48,335 bases of DNA from Dehalococcoidia bacterium (GTDB lineage: Bacteria > Chloroflexota > Dehalococcoidia > Lucifugimonadales > GCA-2717565), in contig SHYH01000005.1 of assembly GCA_009692865.1 (NCBI GenBank), positions 1 to 48,335 on the forward strand, in the 5' to 3' direction. Below are positions 3,103 through 44,219 of the stretch, piece after piece. The number at the start of each line of letters is the position of its first letter. Within the stretch, counting starts at the first letter, position 1. The translations under genes and the position numbers were made by a program. The notes below the pieces were generated by a model. It saw nothing but the letters and a program-made list of their open reading frames with translations, did not search any database and was not told the DNA's origin.

Positions 3103-3456
3103 TGGTGGAGACGGGGGAGAGTCGAACTCCCCGTCCAGAAGATTCCCTAGGGGATGACTACAGGCTTGTCCGGTCGTTGTTTTCTCGCCCTCCCTTGTCC
3201 CGTCCGGCAGGGGCGGGGGAGGGCCAGCCGATGGATCTTTCGCTCCCGCTTATCGGCGTCTAGGGAAACGGCACCTCGATGTGTTGCGCCCTTCGCCCAC
3301 CCTCGAGGAGAGGCGGGCAAGGACGTGGCCGCCCGTTAGGCGGCCAGGGCTACCTGTTGGTTGCCAGTTACTTATTTGCCACCTGATTTACGAGGGCGAT
3401 GGCACCTCGGCCTGCCATCCCTGCGGGACGGTCCCCTGTCAAACCCACGCGTCCCC
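3103..3456 (-). ncRNA. ssrA: Transfer-messenger RNA (tmRNA)
   Basis: tmRNA frees stalled ribosomes together with SmpB. The 3' end shows a T-arm with loop TTCGACT flanked by GGGAG and CTCCC, then CGTCTCC and an encoded ACCA. The 5' end GGGGACG pairs with CGTCTCC to form the acceptor stem and is followed by the tmRNA-type GGGTTTGACAGGG. The internal reading frame (3365-3336 on the minus strand) encodes the tag GNQQVALAA and ends in TAA. The mature length is about 354 nt. smpB lies 1.2 kb away on the same strand. The resume codon GGC is inferred from the upstream TAACT context. Confidence 0.93.
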
Positions 3457-3574: not shown

Positions 3575-4480
3575 CTACCCGATCCCCTGCACCAAGCGGA
3601 TGACTACGGCCAAAGTGAGGATAGCGGCTGCAGAGGACGCCACGACGACGGAGCTGACCAACCTCGGATTGGCGTTGAACTCTGTGGCCAAAAGGCTGGC
3701 GAACACCGCGGTGGGCATGGCAGCCAGGACGATCATCACCTTGCGGTCCAGCCCCGTGGCTCCCACCAGCAGGCTGAGCGGGAACGCGAGGGCCGCCGAG
3801 GCCACCAGTCTGAGCAGCACCACCGCAGTCACGTTGCACACCTCATGGAGGGCGCCGCTGGAGAGTTGGAAGCCCAGGACCACCAGCATGGTTGGGATGG
3901 CCGCCGCCGAAAGCAGTTCCAGGGGCTTCATGACGGGCCCGGGCACGGTCAGATGGAACACGCCGACCAGAGCCCCAGCCAGAGCCGCGTAGGTGGTCGG
4001 AAGCCCGAAAACCCCTAGCAGAGGCCTCCAGCCAACCGTGGAGCTGCGGGCTGCGATGTAGACGCCTACCGACCAGGTCAATGAAGCCTGAATGACGAAG
4101 AAGACCACCGCCCGCTCCAGGGCCCCCTGGCCGAAGGCGAACTGAGTCACCGGCAACCCCAGGTTGTTCACGTTCATGAATGCCGACCCCAGAAGCATGG
4201 CGCTCTCGGTGGGCCGGTCGACGCGCAGGGCGCGGGCCACAATCCACGCCAGCGCCAGGCTCGCCCCAGCCAGCAAGAAGACAAAGACCGTAGTGCGGGC
4301 GAAGACGGCGCTGCCGAAGTCGGAATTGGCCATGGAGACGAAGACCAGGGCAGGGCTGAAAAGGTTCAGGGCCAAAAGGCTGATTGGGGCCGTGGGCGGC
4401 CTCTTCCAGCGGTGCAGGGCCATCCCAAGGGCGACCACCAGGTAGACGGGCAGGATGACGTTGACGAAGATCGAAAGCAC
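3575..4480 (-). CDS. AEC-family transporter (auxin efflux carrier-like permease)
   Basis: A 301-residue integral membrane protein with about ten hydrophobic segments in the two-repeat arrangement of the Mem_trans (AEC) family. The first segment begins at residue 4 (IFVNVILPVYLVVALGMAL). The N-N-L-G-L-P stretch after the GSAFMNV helix and the PTMLVVLGFQLS segment are typical of the family. Members export or import small organic acids or auxin-like compounds; the substrate cannot be told. The start is GTG at 4480 with no clear ribosome binding site. The gene sits between ssrA and smpB without any evident functional link. Confidence 0.88.
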   Translation of the reverse strand: MLSIFVNVILPVYLVVALGMALHRWKRPPTAPISLLALNLFSPALVFVSMANSDFGSAVFARTTVFVFLLAGASLALAWIVARALRVDRPTESAMLLGSAFMNVNNLGLPVTQFAFGQGALERAVVFFVIQASLTWSVGVYIAARSSTVGWRPLLGVFGLPTTYAALAGALVGVFHLTVPGPVMKPLELLSAAAIPTMLVVLGFQLSSGALHEVCNVTAVVLLRLVASAALAFPLSLLVGATGLDRKVMIVLAAMPTAVFASLLATEFNANPRLVSSVVVASSAAAILTLAVVIRLVQGIG

Positions 4481-34625: not shown

Positions 34626-35102
34626 GGGGCTAGGGGGGACCTGTAAGCCGAGTCCTGTTGTCAGGAGGGGTTACCCCCGCCCGACCGATGACCATCTCTC
34701 TAGCCCATCCCTCGCGGGACCTCCCTGTTACCAGGGAGCAGGATTGCTCCTGGGATCCAGCAGCCAACCCGAGGACGAGCCGGGCACTCATGGTCCCCCT
34801 ATTTGGCCTTGCTCCAGATGGGGTTTAGCCGCCCCGATAGTTACCTATCAGAGCCGGGCGCTCTTACCGCCCGTTTTCACCCTTGCCCGCACTCCAGGAC
34901 GAGCCTTCGTCCCAGGTTGCCCTGGTTTACAGCGACGCCCGGAGCCGCTGGCGGTATGGTCTCTGTGCCACTTTCCGTCACCCCGGTCCCGCTCACGGGA
35001 CCGAAATGCCTGGGCGTTACCCAGCATCCCGCCCGGTGGAGCTCGGACTTTCCTCTCCGACGCCAAGCGGCGCCGCAGCGGTCATCCGGTCCCCCTAGCC
35101 CC
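34626..35102 (-). ncRNA. rnpB: RNase P RNA, bacterial class A
   Basis: The catalytic RNA that trims tRNA 5' leaders. The signature GAGGAAAGTCCGAGCTCC occurs near the 5' end (minus strand, about 35058-35041) and the conserved CAGGACTCGGCTTACAG near the 3' end (about 34667-34651). The ends GGGGCTAGGGGGACC and GGTCCCCCCTAGCCCC pair as helix P1, fixing a transcript of about 477 nt, rather long for class A. It is preceded by a consensus promoter at the correct distance. Confidence 0.95.
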
Positions 35103-37881: not shown

Positions 37882-38748
37882 TCAGAGGGCCAGGCCCTTG
37901 AGCCACTGGCGCAAGGCAGGCGCCAGGTCTTCACGCTGGAGGGCCAGCTCCACAGAGGCCTTCAGAAGCCCCAGGGGGGTGCCCACGTCGTAGCGCTTTC
38001 CCTGGAGCACCCAGGCGTACATTGGCTCCCGCTGGGCCAGCAGGTGCATCCCGTCGGTCAGTTGGATCTCCCCCAGGGCCCCGGGCCGCACCTCTGCCAG
38101 GGCCTCAAAAATTCCCGGCGTGAATACGTACCTCCCCACGACGCCCAGGCGTGAGGGCGCCTCCTCAGGCTTCGGCTTCTCCACCAGCCCCTTCACCCGA
38201 TAGAGCCCCTCCGCCACGGGCTCGACGTCCACCACACCGTAGGAGCGACTGGCCTCGGGAGGAATCTCCTCCACGGCGACGACGCTGCCGCCGTACTGGT
38301 GGTACACCTGCAAAAGCTGGCCGATGGCGGGCGTGTCCGAGGCCACGATGTCGTCGGGAAGAAGCACGGCGAAGGGCTCGTTTCCCACACTGTTGCGGGC
38401 CGTGAGCACGGCGTGGCCCAGCCCCAGTTGCTCCTGTTGAGTCACGTAGGCCAGGTCTGCCAGTGTGGCGAGGCGCCGCACCCCCTTGAGCGCCGGGGTC
38501 TCCCTGTGGGCCTCCAGAAACCGCTCCAGCTCCGGCGCCCGGTCAAAGTGGGCCGCCAGGCTCTCCTTGACGCGCGAGGTCACGATGGTCAGGTGCTGGA
38601 TGCCCGCCTGGGCCGCCTCCTCCACTGCGTACTGGACCATGGGGCGGTCCACCACGGGGAGCATTTCTTTGGGGATGGCCTTGGTGACGGGCAGGAACCT
38701 GGTCCCCCACCCTGCGGCGGGGATCACGCCTCTACGGACGGGCTTCAT
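37882..38748 (-). CDS. galU: UTP-glucose-1-phosphate uridylyltransferase
   Basis: 288 residues; forms UDP-glucose. The nucleotide-binding GVIPAAGWGTRFLPVTKAIP and KEMLPVVDRPMVQYAVEEA at the start, FAVLLPDDIV, GVVDVEPV and VGRYVFTPGIFEAL are GalU hallmarks, distinguishing it from RfbA. The start overlaps the meaB stop by four bases, so the pair is coupled though functionally unrelated. Confidence 0.95.
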   Translation of the reverse strand: MKPVRRGVIPAAGWGTRFLPVTKAIPKEMLPVVDRPMVQYAVEEAAQAGIQHLTIVTSRVKESLAAHFDRAPELERFLEAHRETPALKGVRRLATLADLAYVTQQEQLGLGHAVLTARNSVGNEPFAVLLPDDIVASDTPAIGQLLQVYHQYGGSVVAVEEIPPEASRSYGVVDVEPVAEGLYRVKGLVEKPKPEEAPSRLGVVGRYVFTPGIFEALAEVRPGALGEIQLTDGMHLLAQREPMYAWVLQGKRYDVGTPLGLLKASVELALQREDLAPALRQWLKGLAL

Positions 38749-39776
38749 GCAGTCGGCCTCTCTGACAAAGGCTTCCCCTGCCGACTATTGGAAGGGGTCC
38801 CCTCCTCCTCCAGGGCCGCCAGCCAACTCCGCATCAGCGCCCCGTCGCTGAGGGTTTGCAGGGCAGCGGCCAGGGGGTCCCGTTGGCCCTCCTCCACGTC
38901 GCGGAGCAAAGCGGCCACCTCTGTCTTCTTCTCCAGCGCCTCATGGATGCGGGCCTGGAACCCCTCCTCCAGAGCCCTGAGGAACTCATCGCGCCTGCGC
39001 AGCCTGCGTTTCTCCACCAGGCGAGAGGACTGCTCCAGAGCTTTCCGGTGCTCGCGAATGGCGTCGTACACCTCCTGGACGCCCTGCCCCTCGCGGGCCT
39101 GCGCCAACAGGATGGGCGGACGCCACCAGGGGCGCGTCTCCGCCAGGTTCAACATGGTCTGCAGGTCCGAGGCCATGGCCTGGGCCCCTGGGCGGTCCGC
39201 TTTGTTGATGACGAAGACGTCCGCCACCTCCAAGAGGCCCGCCTTCATTGTCTGGACGGTGTCGCCTGACTCAGGGGTCATCAACACCACTACCGTGTCG
39301 GCCAGGCGCATAATCTGGACCTCCGTCTGGCCCACGCCGACTGTCTCCACAATGACGACGTCGGCGCCAAAGGCGTCCAGCAGCTTCACGGCATCCCCCG
39401 TGGCCCGGGAGAGCCCCCCGGCGCTTCCCCGGGTAGCCAGGCTGCGAATGAAGACGCCTTCGTCCAGGTAGTGGCGCTGCATGCGGATGCGGTCGCCCAG
39501 CACGGCGCCCCCCGTAAGGGGGCTGGAGGGGTCCACCGCCAGAACGCCAACGCGCTGCTGCTCCTGGCGAATCAGGTGAATCAACTGGTCCACCAGCGTG
39601 CTCTTGCCGGCCCCCGGCGGGCCGGTGATGCCGATGGTGTAGGCGCGCCCCGTATGGGGGTGGAGGCGGTCCATGACGCCAGGCAGGGAGGGGTCTCCCC
39701 TCTCCACCAAGGTGATGAGGCGGGCCAGGCTGCGACGGTCCTTCGCAAGCAGCTTTTCTACGAGGCTGTCTTCCAC
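38745..39776 (-). CDS. meaB: MeaB/ArgK-family G protein, methylmalonyl-CoA mutase chaperone
   Basis: 343 residues. The SIMIBI GTPase MeaB loads and protects B12 in methylmalonyl-CoA mutase or relatives. Seen: Walker A GITGPPGAGKSTLVDQLI, VGVLAVDPSSPLTGGAVLGD, RSLATRGSAGGLSRAT, VIVETVGVGQTE, and the NKAD motif. GTG start at 39776. No mutase gene is in the window, so the partner is unknown. Downstream galU overlaps by 4 bp. Confidence 0.93.
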   Translation of the reverse strand: MEDSLVEKLLAKDRRSLARLITLVERGDPSLPGVMDRLHPHTGRAYTIGITGPPGAGKSTLVDQLIHLIRQEQQRVGVLAVDPSSPLTGGAVLGDRIRMQRHYLDEGVFIRSLATRGSAGGLSRATGDAVKLLDAFGADVVIVETVGVGQTEVQIMRLADTVVVLMTPESGDTVQTMKAGLLEVADVFVINKADRPGAQAMASDLQTMLNLAETRPWWRPPILLAQAREGQGVQEVYDAIREHRKALEQSSRLVEKRRLRRRDEFLRALEEGFQARIHEALEKKTEVAALLRDVEEGQRDPLAAALQTLSDGALMRSWLAALEEEGTPSNSRQGKPLSERPTA

Positions 39777-39888: not shown

Positions 39889-41685
39889 CTAGGTGCCCCG
39901 CTCGTCTTTGATAGGCCATATCTTCCTGGATAGCTCAAATAATCTGTCGGTTCTGTTGTCTATCTCGGTCTTGTTCCACTCGGGGATTGCACAGAGAGAT
40001 TTGGTCAATTCTATATGCGACTTCTTGTAACCCTGTTTCTTCTTAGCGAACGGAGCGTTAGTTACGCTTACGTTTAGTCTTTTGTCGAGGAGAGTGAAAT
40101 TCCCGAATCTGTAAGTGTATTCAGTCCTTTCCCTATCGTTCGGAAATACGTTCAGCCAGCTGGGCATTGGGGTTCTGGGAAGCACATGTTCCAACTGCAC
40201 TTTAGCTGGGCTCCGCAACTCCAATTCAACATGATTGAATTCGGTATTCTCGATATTGCATAGAACCATCTTGATGAACTTGGAGTCATTGAAAGCGCCT
40301 GTTTTGAAGCTAGCTTTACACTCGTCAACGGTTGGCAGTTCCTTTTGAAGCGTCCTATCTATGTCTGCCAGAAACGCCGATATCGTAGTTTTGTCCTTCT
40401 GCCTTAATGAATGGGCCAATGAGTGATAAGTGCTCTCCAACCGTTTTGCGTCCTTCCCACATATCCCGCTATACCAAAAGGTCAAACGAGTTATTTGCTT
40501 AAGAATCTTTATCGCTTCACTGTCTGTAATGTGCCTTTTTCTATTTGCCCAGTCAATGCTGAGCAGTAGTGGATAGCATCGTGTGGCATCCATTGCCGCA
40601 AGAGTCTCCAAGCAGTGCCTCTTATCCTCTTTGGATTCACTAGAAGGGTTCTCATAGCTATGATAGAACCTGGATTCGTCAAATATCAGGTCTGCCGCGA
40701 ACTCAAATACATCCGCCGGAGACAGGACCTGGATTTCCTTTTGTAACACATCGAACACCTTATTCTTGGGCCACGTGGGATATCGAGAAAACCAGGCGTG
40801 CCACATGAATGATGCGAAATCCGAAACCGCTACTTCTGCATCATCCCATTCGTTTTCGAAATCATCGATATTCGTTGCTTCTATTCGGTCCTCAAATTTT
40901 TCAAAGAACGCGTTCTTCACGAGGTCGCTCAGGTTTAACTGTTTACCCCGCGCATTCATTGTCTCGAAGACCGTATTGGCATCAAACTTATCTTTTACAG
41001 TGATAACTAGAAACCATATCTGATTGAGTAGCAAACTCTGTAGCTTGTTCAGGTCATCTGCCAAAGTGTCCCCAGTTTTTGCGTCGTATCTTTCGCGCAA
41101 CTCATCCCACACCTTCGTGTAGGCATCGAATAGCAGTATGGTTGAAGGGTGTTCGCCTTTCTTGGAAGTTTTCAGTAGGTCAGCCCTGTCAGGCGTGTCT
41201 GGCATGAGGATGGTTTCGCGGAAAGGTCTGTCTATCTTTCTACCCAGATGTATCACAGGAGTTGGCTGGCTTGTCCATCCCTTAACTATCTTGCTTTTCA
41301 ATTCGTACCGGATCATACCCATGTGTTCTGTCCGTCTTTGTGGGAAGGACCCTGCGTTAATCCTGATCTCAAGGTAATCCACCAAACCTCTGATGAATAT
41401 GGCCAGGGTTACTAGTCTTTGTTGTCCATCTATGAGTTCTATGGAATCATTGGCATCCAAAGGGCAAACAATGATAGGCCCCATATAGTACGGCTTGATC
41501 ACTTGTTTTTCTTTTTCCGATTGGTCGATGTTGTCGAAGACGTCGTCCAACAGTTTGGTCACTTGATTTTCTTTTTCCCATGTATATTTGCGTTGATATT
41601 TGGGGACCTGAAAGAACGAGGCCTCAGTTTGACTATTGGGAGTGCTGAATAGTTGGCCGAGAGTGCGCATGTCATGGCCGAACAT
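39889..41685 (-). CDS. GmrSD-like type IV restriction protein (DUF262-DUF1524)
   Basis: 598 residues. The N-terminal DUF262 domain has VPKYQRKYTWE (about 28-37) and the nucleotide-site IDGQQRLVTLA (about 85-95). The C-terminal DUF1524 HNH domain has LEHVLPRTP (about 498) and FGNFTLLDKRLNVSVTNAPF followed by KKKQGYKKSH. This is the GmrSD arrangement that cuts DNA carrying modified (often glucosylated) cytosine. The ATG at 41685 follows AGGGAGAATAGCA; upstream frame sequence comes from repeat C1. Base composition is clearly more A/T-rich than the flanks, pointing to transfer. Confidence 0.88.
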   Translation of the reverse strand: MFGHDMRTLGQLFSTPNSQTEASFFQVPKYQRKYTWEKENQVTKLLDDVFDNIDQSEKEKQVIKPYYMGPIIVCPLDANDSIELIDGQQRLVTLAIFIRGLVDYLEIRINAGSFPQRRTEHMGMIRYELKSKIVKGWTSQPTPVIHLGRKIDRPFRETILMPDTPDRADLLKTSKKGEHPSTILLFDAYTKVWDELRERYDAKTGDTLADDLNKLQSLLLNQIWFLVITVKDKFDANTVFETMNARGKQLNLSDLVKNAFFEKFEDRIEATNIDDFENEWDDAEVAVSDFASFMWHAWFSRYPTWPKNKVFDVLQKEIQVLSPADVFEFAADLIFDESRFYHSYENPSSESKEDKRHCLETLAAMDATRCYPLLLSIDWANRKRHITDSEAIKILKQITRLTFWYSGICGKDAKRLESTYHSLAHSLRQKDKTTISAFLADIDRTLQKELPTVDECKASFKTGAFNDSKFIKMVLCNIENTEFNHVELELRSPAKVQLEHVLPRTPMPSWLNVFPNDRERTEYTYRFGNFTLLDKRLNVSVTNAPFAKKKQGYKKSHIELTKSLCAIPEWNKTEIDNRTDRLFELSRKIWPIKDERGT

Positions 41686-41832
41686 TGCTATTCTCCCTGG
41701 AACGAGATTGAAAGCATAGTACTTGTAATTCATTGGGGCTTTGCGCGCCAGAACCGCAGGGGGAGGGAATGGCTCGCAGTTGGAACGCTTGACCCAATAC
41801 GTTAGCGTGGATCCAAGGGACACCCTGGTGGT

Positions 41833-41892
41833 CCAGGCCGAAGGCACTCGACTTGTGCCGTATTCGGCATCACGGATCGGTGGCACGCCCTG
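41833..41892 (+). repeat. Dispersed repeat family C, copy 1
   Basis: About 60 bp with CCAGGCCGAAGGCACTCGAC, TTGTGCCGTATTCGGCATCA and CGGATCGGTGGCACGCCCTG as successive blocks. It is near-identical to 45171-45231 and to the reverse complement of 27656-27714. It lies between the GmrSD-like gene and the MetE-like pair. Confidence 0.8.
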
Positions 41893-41894
41893 CC

Positions 41895-41923
41895 TTGCGC
41901 CCCTCCTCCTCCTGCCCTACAAT
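41895..41923 (+). promoter_or_regulatory. Promoter candidate for the MetE-like pair
   Basis: TTGCGC (41895-41900), 17-bp spacer, TACAAT (41918-41923). It lies directly after repeat C1 and about 57 bp before the first MetE-like start codon. Confidence 0.5.
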
Positions 41924-41979
41924 CGAAGACGGCGTTTTCCTGGCAGTCCATTCAATAAGAGGAGGCACCTTCCACCACT

Positions 41980-42948
41980 GTGTACACCACCGCTGTAGGC
42001 CACTACCCCAAGATAGGCGGCAAGGCCCCCAACCTGCGCACCGCCCTGAACCGCCTCGACCTGGAGCGCATCACCCAGGAGGAGGTCCACCGCATCGAGG
42101 ACGAGAACACCGTGGAGGTGCTGGAGGCTCAGGCCCGCGCCGGCCTGGACGTGGTGACCGACGGGCAGGTCCGGTGGGAGGACGGCCAGACCCACTTCGC
42201 CCGCCGCCTGAAGGGCTTCTCCATCGGCGGCCTCACCCGCTACTTCAACACCAACACCTACTACCGCCAGCCCGTGGCGGAGGGCCCCGTGGCCTGGGAG
42301 GGGCCCATCGCCCTGCAGGACTACCAGTTCGCCGTGGCCCACAGCTCCAAGCCCGTCAAGGCCGTCATCACGGGGCCCTACACCCTGGCCCGCCTCTGCG
42401 TCAACCAGGCCTATCCTGATCTGAACTCCCTGGCGCTGGCCCTGGCCGAGGCCCTCAACCAGGAGGCCTTGGCTCTGCAGAAGGCCGGCGCTCCCCTCAT
42501 CCAGTTCGACGAGCCCGCCATTTTGAAGTACAAAGAGGATTTCCCTGTCTTCCTGGAGGCGGCACGCAGGGTGACTCGTGGCCTCACGGTCAAGACCGCC
42601 GTCTCCACCTGGTTCTACGACATCTCGGGCCTCTACCCCCAGTTCCTCCAGGCCCCCTTCCAGGTCATCGGCCTGGACTTCGTCTCCAGCAGGGCCAACC
42701 TCGAGCTCCTGAAGAAGTTCCCGTCGGACAAGGAGCTGGGCTTCGGCGTCCTGGACGGGCGCAACACCTACGTGGAGCCCGTGGAGCAGATTGTGGAGGC
42801 CCTGCGCCGGATCAAGCGCGTCGTCCCCCTGGACCGGATTCACCTGAGCCCCAGCTGCGGGCTGGAGTATTTGCCCAGGGAGAGGGCCTATCAGAAACTG
42901 GTGCGGTTGGTTGAAGGGGCCCGCAAGGCCCAGGAGGTGTTGGCATGA
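41980..42948 (+). CDS. MetE-like protein 1 (resembles the N-terminal/non-zinc half)
   Basis: 322 residues with the cobalamin-independent methionine synthase barrel: TTAVGHYPKIGGKAPNLR at the start, LDVVTDGQVRWEDGQTHFAR, VITGPYTLARLC, IQFDEPAIL, and SPSCGLEYLPR at the end. At the H-x-C zinc site the sequence is KTAVSTWFYDIS, lacking both ligands, so it does not look like a self-sufficient methyltransferase. It resembles the N-terminal half of split MetE enzymes. GTG start at 41980, with GGAGG 14 bases upstream. It overlaps the second gene by 4 bp. Confidence 0.85.
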   Translation: MYTTAVGHYPKIGGKAPNLRTALNRLDLERITQEEVHRIEDENTVEVLEAQARAGLDVVTDGQVRWEDGQTHFARRLKGFSIGGLTRYFNTNTYYRQPVAEGPVAWEGPIALQDYQFAVAHSSKPVKAVITGPYTLARLCVNQAYPDLNSLALALAEALNQEALALQKAGAPLIQFDEPAILKYKEDFPVFLEAARRVTRGLTVKTAVSTWFYDISGLYPQFLQAPFQVIGLDFVSSRANLELLKKFPSDKELGFGVLDGRNTYVEPVEQIVEALRRIKRVVPLDRIHLSPSCGLEYLPRERAYQKLVRLVEGARKAQEVLA

Positions 42949-43940
42949 CCAAGGGATTGTTTACCACCAGCGTAGGCAGCTTTCCCAAGCCGGACTACCT
43001 GGTGAAGGCACGGAACAAGGCGGCCCGAGGGGAGATAGCCCCTCAGGAGCTGCAGGAGCTGGAGCGGAAGGCCACGGAGCAGTGGATCCGGGTTCAGGAG
43101 GAGCTGGGCATAGACATCCTGGTGGACGGCGAGATGTACCGTGGCGACATGGTGGCCTACTTCGCCGAGCATTGGGAAGGGTTTGGCGAAAGCGGCCTGG
43201 TGCGCGCCTACGGCAACCGCTACTACCACAAGCCCGTGGTTACCGGCCCCGTGAGGCGGTCCAGGCCTACCACCGTGGAGTGGTGGAGGTACGCCCAGAG
43301 CCTGACCAGCAGGCCCGTCAAGGGGATGCTCACGGGACCCTACACCATCTGTGACTGGTCCTTTGACGAGCACTACGGGGACCGGGAGACCTTCGTCATG
43401 GCCTTGGCTAAGGCCGTCCACGACGAGGCCAAAGACCTGGAAGCAGCGGGCTGCCAGTACATCCAGATTGACGAGCCTGCCATCTGCACCCGTGCCGAGG
43501 AGGTGGAGATGGCCTCCCGAGCCCTGGGCATCGTCACCAAGGGCCTCAAAGCCTACACCGTCACCCACACCGCCGAGTACACCCAGACCTATGGTGAGAT
43601 GGCCTCGGTCTTTGACCAGGTAGTGCACCTGCCCGTGGACAACCTGGACCTGGAGATGGCCAACAGCAACTACTTTATCCTGGAGCTCTTTCGCCAGCGA
43701 GGACTCCCAGGGGACAAGGCCATCTCCGCCGGCGTCCTGGACGTTCACACTCACCGCATTGAGTCCGTTGACCGGGTCAAGGCAGGCATTCGGCAGCTCC
43801 TTGAGGTGATCCCTGCTGAGCGGCTGTGGATCAAGCCCGATTGTGGCCTCAAGACGCGGCTGGAGGAGGAGGCCATCGCCAAGCTTAAGGTGATGGTTCA
43901 GGCGGTGCGAGAGGTCAAAGAGGAGATGGGGATCGAGTAG
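42945..43940 (+). CDS. MetE-like protein 2 (resembles the catalytic half, altered zinc site)
   Basis: 331 residues of the same family: FTTSVGSFPKPDYLVKARNK, ILVDGEMYRGDMVAYFAEHW, GMLTGPYTICDWSF, IQIDEPAIC and KPDCGLKTR (Cys300). The usual zinc motif H-x-C appears as HTA (208-210), so one Cys ligand is missing. A different methyl donor or acceptor, or a different metal set, is possible. It is translationally coupled to the preceding paralogue and followed by a strong terminator, making a clear two-gene operon. Confidence 0.85.
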   Translation: MTKGLFTTSVGSFPKPDYLVKARNKAARGEIAPQELQELERKATEQWIRVQEELGIDILVDGEMYRGDMVAYFAEHWEGFGESGLVRAYGNRYYHKPVVTGPVRRSRPTTVEWWRYAQSLTSRPVKGMLTGPYTICDWSFDEHYGDRETFVMALAKAVHDEAKDLEAAGCQYIQIDEPAICTRAEEVEMASRALGIVTKGLKAYTVTHTAEYTQTYGEMASVFDQVVHLPVDNLDLEMANSNYFILELFRQRGLPGDKAISAGVLDVHTHRIESVDRVKAGIRQLLEVIPAERLWIKPDCGLKTRLEEEAIAKLKVMVQAVREVKEEMGIE

Positions 43941-43968
43941 AGGTCGCTCTCAAGGGGTTGGCAGCTTA

Positions 43969-44005
43969 GGCGGAGCAGGCGCCGTGGCGCCTGCTCCGCC
44001 TTTTC
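43969..44005 (+). terminator. Rho-independent terminator of the MetE-like operon
   Basis: A perfect 14-bp stem GGCGGAGCAGGCGC-CGTG-GCGCCTGCTCCGCC is followed by TTTTCTTT, 28 bases after the stop codon. Confidence 0.92.
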
Positions 44006-44043
44006 TTTGCCTCCGCATGATATTCAACATCTAGGCTCTTTCT

Positions 44044-44219
44044 AGGGTAAGGCCCAAAAACAGCCACTTGGGACGATCAAGGGGTAAAAGTTCATTGGGA
44101 AGGTCTTATGGGGAACCCTTTCTTGCAAGAAAGGGTTCCCCATACCTCTCCGAAAGAACCTGCAACACCCAACGCTTTGTCAACCTGCTCCAACACTAAA
44201 CTGGTGGCTCGAACAGGAT
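44044..44219 (+). repeat. Dispersed repeat family A, copy 3
   Basis: A full-length copy: GGGTAAGGCCCAAAAACAGC at the left, the perfect 32-bp palindrome at 44110-44141 with arms GGGGAACCCTTTCTTG and CAAGAAAGGGTTCCCC, then CTCTCCGAAAGAACCTGCAA and the tail GGTGGCTCGAACAGGATT. It follows the MetE-like operon terminator. Confidence 0.87.

Follow-up and report, generated by a model that had tools for sequence, protein, structure and literature searches.

Split MetE is known mainly from archaea and from Sulfobacillus (PF1268/PF1269), according to the account given by Price et al. (2021; PMC7857596), and the P. furiosus complex enters here second-hand, as told in the cited papers. The same account divides the core synthases into MesA to MesD; in MesC, the very Cys that concerns us here is replaced by His or Tyr. 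The core enzyme of Dehalococcoides was described by Deobald et al. (PMC7005905). For the tandem MetE of T. maritima, the structural description in PMC539065 has the N-terminal barrel disabled at Tyr232, together with an aromatic neighbor, and at Asp253, with Cys309 retained.

The window, by which we mean the whole stretch of 48,335 nucleotides analyzed here, contains two overlapping genes for the proteins P0001 and P0002 (Table 1). Both matched PF01717 (129.6 bits for P0001 and 277.3 bits for P0002; cut-off 21) as well as PF08267 (97 and 49.1 bits; cut-off 27), which together with the overlap bears out the coupled pair of MetE-like proteins described in the initial annotation. The closest curated model for both proteins was the methionine synthase model PRK04326 (259.4 and 376.2 bits; cut-off 406). 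This was also the top model for every relative scored, with the cut-off being passed by one of eight catalytic relatives (L007, 412.2 bits). The partner gene adjoins the catalytic gene in all 73 relatives (47/47 and 26/26), and among the 47 relatives for which spacing was recorded the two genes are always on the same strand and within 10 bp of each other in 36 cases. A shared promoter and a strong terminator had also been proposed for the pair. A strong terminator-like hairpin does follow the second gene, although 1.8 such sites are expected by chance in the region around the pair, whereas a scan of the forward strand over positions 41700-44200 yielded no promoter-like site. The neighbors of the pair are a GmrSD-type gene, MeaB, a nucleotidyltransferase and a MarR regulator, and PF08908 (MesX) had no match among the five neighbors scanned against Pfam. 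A class A RNase P RNA and a tmRNA are encoded elsewhere in the window.

Table 1. Coordinates of the gene pair, of the codons discussed in the text and of other features in the window.
Feature	Coordinates	Strand	Basis or remark
Gene 1, P0001, 322 aa, GTG start	41980..42948	+	Putative non-catalytic barrel of split MetE
Gene 2, P0002, 331 aa, ATG start	42945..43940	+	Putative catalytic barrel, altered metal site
Overlap of genes 1 and 2, 4 bp, ATGA	42945..42948	+	Read in sequence; same overlap in 22/47 relatives
Cys181 codon	43485..43487	+	Alignment with relatives; His at this place in 16 relatives without E237
H208-T209-A210 codons, replacing H-x-C	43566..43574	+	Alignment with relatives
Five-residue insertion E211-Y212-T213-Q214-T215	43575..43589	+	Absent from 71 other alignment rows, L005 and L010 excepted
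Glu237 codon, retained ligand	43653..43655	+	Alignment with relatives
Lys297 codon, only in three variants	43833..43835	+	Alignment with relatives
Cys300 codon, retained ligand	43842..43844	+	Alignment with relatives
Terminator-like hairpin, 15 pairs, then T-rich tail TTTCTTT	43968..44001	+	Terminator scan
GmrSD-type restriction gene	39889-41886	-	PF03235 and PF07510; immediately upstream of pair, divergent
MeaB (GTPase of methylmalonyl-CoA mutase)	38745-39776	-	Two genes upstream of pair, opposite strand
RNase P RNA class A	34627-35097	-	471 bases against a 367-position model
tmRNA	3103-3456	-	

P0001 contains no H-x-C motif, as the initial annotation had noted in likening it to the non-catalytic half of MetE. 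Its TRYFNTNTYY motif aligns to the N-terminal barrel of T. maritima MetE, and W211-F212, D233 and C293 occupy the positions at which that barrel is disabled, where the matching of positions is our reading of the T. maritima alignment. These residues are maintained among the relatives of P0001, with Tyr or Trp at position 211 in 44/45, Phe at position 212 in 44/45 and Asp at position 233 in 45/45. Since the residues of a disabled N-terminal barrel are present, the missing H-x-C is as expected, and P0001 is, judged by these residues, a naturally non-catalytic MetE barrel. The assignment to the N-terminal barrel rests on residues and not on the fold, because the predicted model of P0001 (pLDDT 83) fits C-terminal barrels slightly better (Z 33-35) than the N-terminal barrel (Z 31). 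The higher score to PF01717 than to PF08267 is likewise contrary to the rule for the non-catalytic subunit as worded by Price et al. (PMC7857596).

In P0002, three of the four zinc ligands are kept (H208, E237 and C300), while the fourth is Ala (A210). The reading HTA for H-x-C and the later Cys had been recognized previously; the retained Glu had not been mentioned. According to PMC539065, the corresponding Cys of E. coli MetE was identified by mutagenesis as one of the zinc ligands. Five residues (EYTQT) are inserted between A210 and Y216, an insertion that is visible only by comparison with the relatives. The AlphaFold2 model of P0002 (pLDDT 90) gave Z scores of about 39 to MetE C-terminal barrels and to 3RPD. 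In the model, strand 5 has H208 at its end, strand 6 closes with E237, and C300 comes after strand 8, matching the description of MetE in PMC539065; the inserted loop at residues 211-215 is the least certain block (pLDDT 64). The homocysteine-binding residues S12, E63 and D176 are conserved in all alignment rows that cover them (74, 74 and 73 of 74).

The relatives come from a scan of named genomes and from protein searches in overlapping samples of three ranks, namely the order (197 and 250 genomes), the class (393) and the phylum (400). In total, 73 catalytic relatives were read, giving 74 rows with P0002, of which 73 cover the metal site, the row of L020 being truncated. The H-x-C motif, with C210, is present in 70 of these 73 catalytic subunits, and the pattern THTAEYxxTY is confined to P0002, L005 and L010, the latter two from genomes G035 and G036. 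L005 and L010 read THTAEY(T/S)(Q/H)TY in frame, and all three proteins have A210, E211, Y212, T215 and K297, none of which occurs at these places in the other relatives. The earlier statement that neither protein has a complete zinc site is thus literally correct, but P0001 appears to be non-catalytic by nature and P0002 stands out as a local exception among relatives that otherwise carry H-x-C. Orthologues with H-x-C had been named in the initial annotation as grounds for refuting its proposal; they do so for the family at large, but not for the three variants. Among the 393 genomes of the class, the coded variant pattern was found only in the window's own genome; this sample is without G035 and G036, which stem from the search of the order. 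A limited literature search returned no description of the A210 variant. Further single-barrel MetE-like proteins with H-x-C are encoded in G035, G036 and G007 (L161-L166, L170, L171).

A sequencing accident is an unlikely source of the variant, because two other genomes share the motif in frame and because the dN/dS ratio of the second window gene against L005 is about 0.26 (0.188/0.711). With a ratio of 0.43 for the first gene in the same comparison, both genes appear to be maintained under purifying selection. A recent exchange of the metal loop among the three variants was rejected: in 15-codon windows, codon identity at residues 206-220 is 0.73 to 0.76, which ranks 83 to 188 and forms no peak. 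A clade of the three catalytic variants was neither recovered nor rejected (p-AU 0.217 without the loop columns; 0.294 and 0.55 for two parts), while their partner subunits reject such a grouping (p-AU 4e-5). The trees of the two subunits give different histories for the three variants.

The loss of a residue that usually holds zinc and the gain of a short loop at the same place suggest a rebuilding, and not a loss, of the metal site of P0002. A replacement ligand common to all three variants is more likely to be the inserted E211 or Y212 than residue 181, which is Ser in both L005 and L010. C181 is present in the window protein alone among the 73, and may there replace the lost Cys210.

A second departure from the conventional site was observed within the same family. 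E237 is replaced by Ala in 16 of the 73 catalytic subunits (L019, L133-L137, L181-L185, L187, L188, L194, L195, L198), and all 16 have His instead of Ser at position 181; six of them have H235 and ten have H297. In the 57 proteins that keep E237, residue 181 is Ser (55), Thr (1) or Cys (1). The association is strong if relatedness is ignored (Fisher 2e-16). In a tree built without these columns, E237 has to be lost twice and H181 gained twice, which is too few events for significance in a sign test. Most simply, residue 181 would lie near the metal and His181 would replace Glu237.

We also considered the genomic context of the pair and its relation to other methionine synthases. A SAM riboswitch directly precedes the pair at two Bacillota loci (L039, positions 857-961; L040, positions 3800-3904), whereas none was found at the gathering score before the window pair. 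In five of the seven named-genome loci (L034, L035, L037, L039, L040), which lie outside the genome-search set, the next gene after the pair codes for a protein of 611-650 aa from a single family. The one of the five that was scored, at L035, is an HMT/MTHFR fusion (715.9 bits; cut-off 453). An HMT/MTHFR enzyme is also encoded in the window genome (L003, 683.7 bits). Of 18 genomes checked, 17 were found to have MTHFR, and the remaining one (G048) is 71% complete. No recurrent neighbors that point to a pathway were seen at the genome-search loci.

Among the 250 genomes of the order, the pair was found in 17 and MetH in 87, and the two were never found together (expected 5.9; p 0.0005, relatedness ignored). 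These counts comprise 16 pairs at E 1e-90 plus one genome (G012) with a truncated copy, and MetH matches at E 1e-100. The 17 genomes with matches to tandem-type MetE include none with the pair and two with MetH. The pair and MetH replace each other within family f1 (G000 with the pair, G013 with MetH), family f7 (G044 and G065 versus G091) and family f19 (G083 and G019 versus G096, G070 and G053). The window genome had been singled out for a search for MetH or another MetE, and no MetH or other PF01717 protein was found in it; at 82.67% completeness, another synthase could be missed. The argument from a sole synthase is weaker for G035 and G036, because these genomes have the other H-x-C proteins mentioned above.

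Methionine synthesis by the pair is supported by this context, since the partner is adjacent in 73/73 relatives, a SAM riboswitch precedes the pair at two Bacillota loci and the pair never co-occurs with MetH in the 250 genomes of the order. Together with the HMT/MTHFR gene and the conserved homocysteine-binding residues, these results favor the split methionine synthase that was one of the two functions first suggested. We lean, by a modest degree, towards the interpretation that the pair is a methionine synthase that is split, depends on folate and has a rearranged metal site. P0001, as the non-catalytic barrel, would contribute to the methyl-folate cleft of a complex with P0002, while P0002 would hold the metal, presumably zinc, as well as homocysteine, and would carry out the transfer. 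In the metal site, His208, Glu237 and Cys300 would stay as ligands where the second Cys has become Ala210, and the replacement would be Glu211 or Tyr212 of the inserted loop, which all three variants share, or else Cys181, an option for the window protein alone. The methyl donor for the homocysteine, activated by the metal as a thiolate, would be methyl-tetrahydrofolate supplied by the HMT/MTHFR enzyme, whose gene lies elsewhere in the genome. This interpretation gains from the apparently rebuilt sites elsewhere in the family, where all 16 proteins with E237A have H181, and from the His or Tyr described for the same Cys in MesC (PMC7857596). It is weakened by the missing ligand, that Cys being a known ligand in E. 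coli MetE by the account cited above, by the absence of C181 from L005 and L010, and by the low pLDDT of the loop. The score of P0002 below the PRK04326 cut-off, the lack of a detected riboswitch at the window pair, the incompleteness of the window genome and the other H-x-C proteins of G035 and G036 weaken it as well.

Alternatively, the altered metal site may serve the three variants for a new substrate, either another thiol or a small methyl acceptor, in which case the HMT domain or other MetE-like proteins would supply the methionine. Such a switch would fit a change that affects nothing but the catalytic subunit's metal site, the presence of other MetE-like proteins in G035 and G036, and an HMT/MTHFR enzyme in the window genome that might itself make methionine. 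Yet S12, E63 and D176 are unchanged, the partner subunits have one weak variant-specific position only (H37), recurrent new neighbors were not seen, and the search of the incomplete window genome disclosed neither MetH nor another MetE-like protein. We consider a new substrate unlikely, and the methyltransferase for another thiol or amine, as put forward in the initial annotation, gained no positive evidence.

That P0002 is without metal or activity, either as a binding or regulatory protein or in early decay, has a parallel in the MesB-like proteins of Chloroflexales, which lost zinc residues and are treated as non-enzymatic in the account of Price et al. (PMC7857596). We judge this improbable for a protein that has kept three ligands and all substrate residues, with an insertion conserved in three genomes and a dN/dS ratio of about 0.26. 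Lastly, the pair had been linked to corrinoid-dependent core enzymes. The Dehalococcoides core MetE does use methylcobalamin in vitro, as reported in PMC7005905, but core enzymes are without the second barrel that is here adjacent in 73/73 relatives, the best model is PRK04326, with an H-x-C member (L007) above its cut-off, and the ligand is Glu as opposed to the Asp that Price et al. (PMC7857596) give for characterized MesB. We thus regard a core-type synthase on the model of Dehalococcoides MesB, with a corrinoid protein as methyl donor, as very improbable.

Returning to the rearranged synthase, a broader proposal, which we hold tentatively and with a little less than even confidence, is that the zinc site of bacterial split MetE was rebuilt at least three times by ligand moves. 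Cys210 would have been lost with gain of the Glu-Tyr loop (and of Cys181 in the window protein) and Glu237 twice with gain of His181, and the window protein would function as a methionine synthase through a set of ligands that is unseen in the MetE structures known to us. If the variants are active, the presence of four zinc ligands fails as a test for the enzyme status of MetE homologs, and naturally arisen ligand swaps at a thiol-activating zinc become available in this family.

Compared to known systems, the window pair resembles split MetE as described in PMC7857596 in its two adjacent single-barrel genes, one of them putatively catalytic, in a catalytic subunit that is closest to PRK04326, though with a score below the cut-off of that model, and in being the only methionine synthase seen in its genome, which is 82.67% complete and has HMT/MTHFR. 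It differs from split MetE, as described there, in a catalytic subunit without the second zinc Cys and with a five-residue insertion, and in a non-catalytic subunit that scores higher to PF01717 than to PF08267. Without the complete His-Cys-Glu-Cys site, a defining feature of split MetE, the window pair is, as far as its sequence tells, a variant rather than an ordinary member. While the split MetE of that account is mainly archaeal, or from Sulfobacillus, the pair was found here in several bacterial groups, to which split MetE is thereby extended, with a role supported by the SAM riboswitch and the neighboring MTHFR-type gene. The tandem MetE of T. maritima (1XDJ; PMC539065) shares with the pair both barrel folds, the His, Glu and second Cys ligands, the homocysteine residues and the residues of a disabled N-terminal barrel, but is a single polypeptide with a complete H-C-E-C site. 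In the MesC core synthases, a ligand is replaced at exactly the same position as in P0002 (by His, or by Tyr in two proteins), but these are archaeal, have no second barrel and show a one-for-one replacement as described in PMC7857596. The MesB-like proteins of Chloroflexales are also homologs that have lost MetE zinc ligands, but in the same account they belong to another family, in which several ligands were lost together (FSHG, YCDQ, YREQ). MesB itself is described as a single barrel without a partner and with a His-Cys-Asp-Cys site, in contrast to the window protein with its partner overlapping by 4 bp, Ala210 and Glu237.
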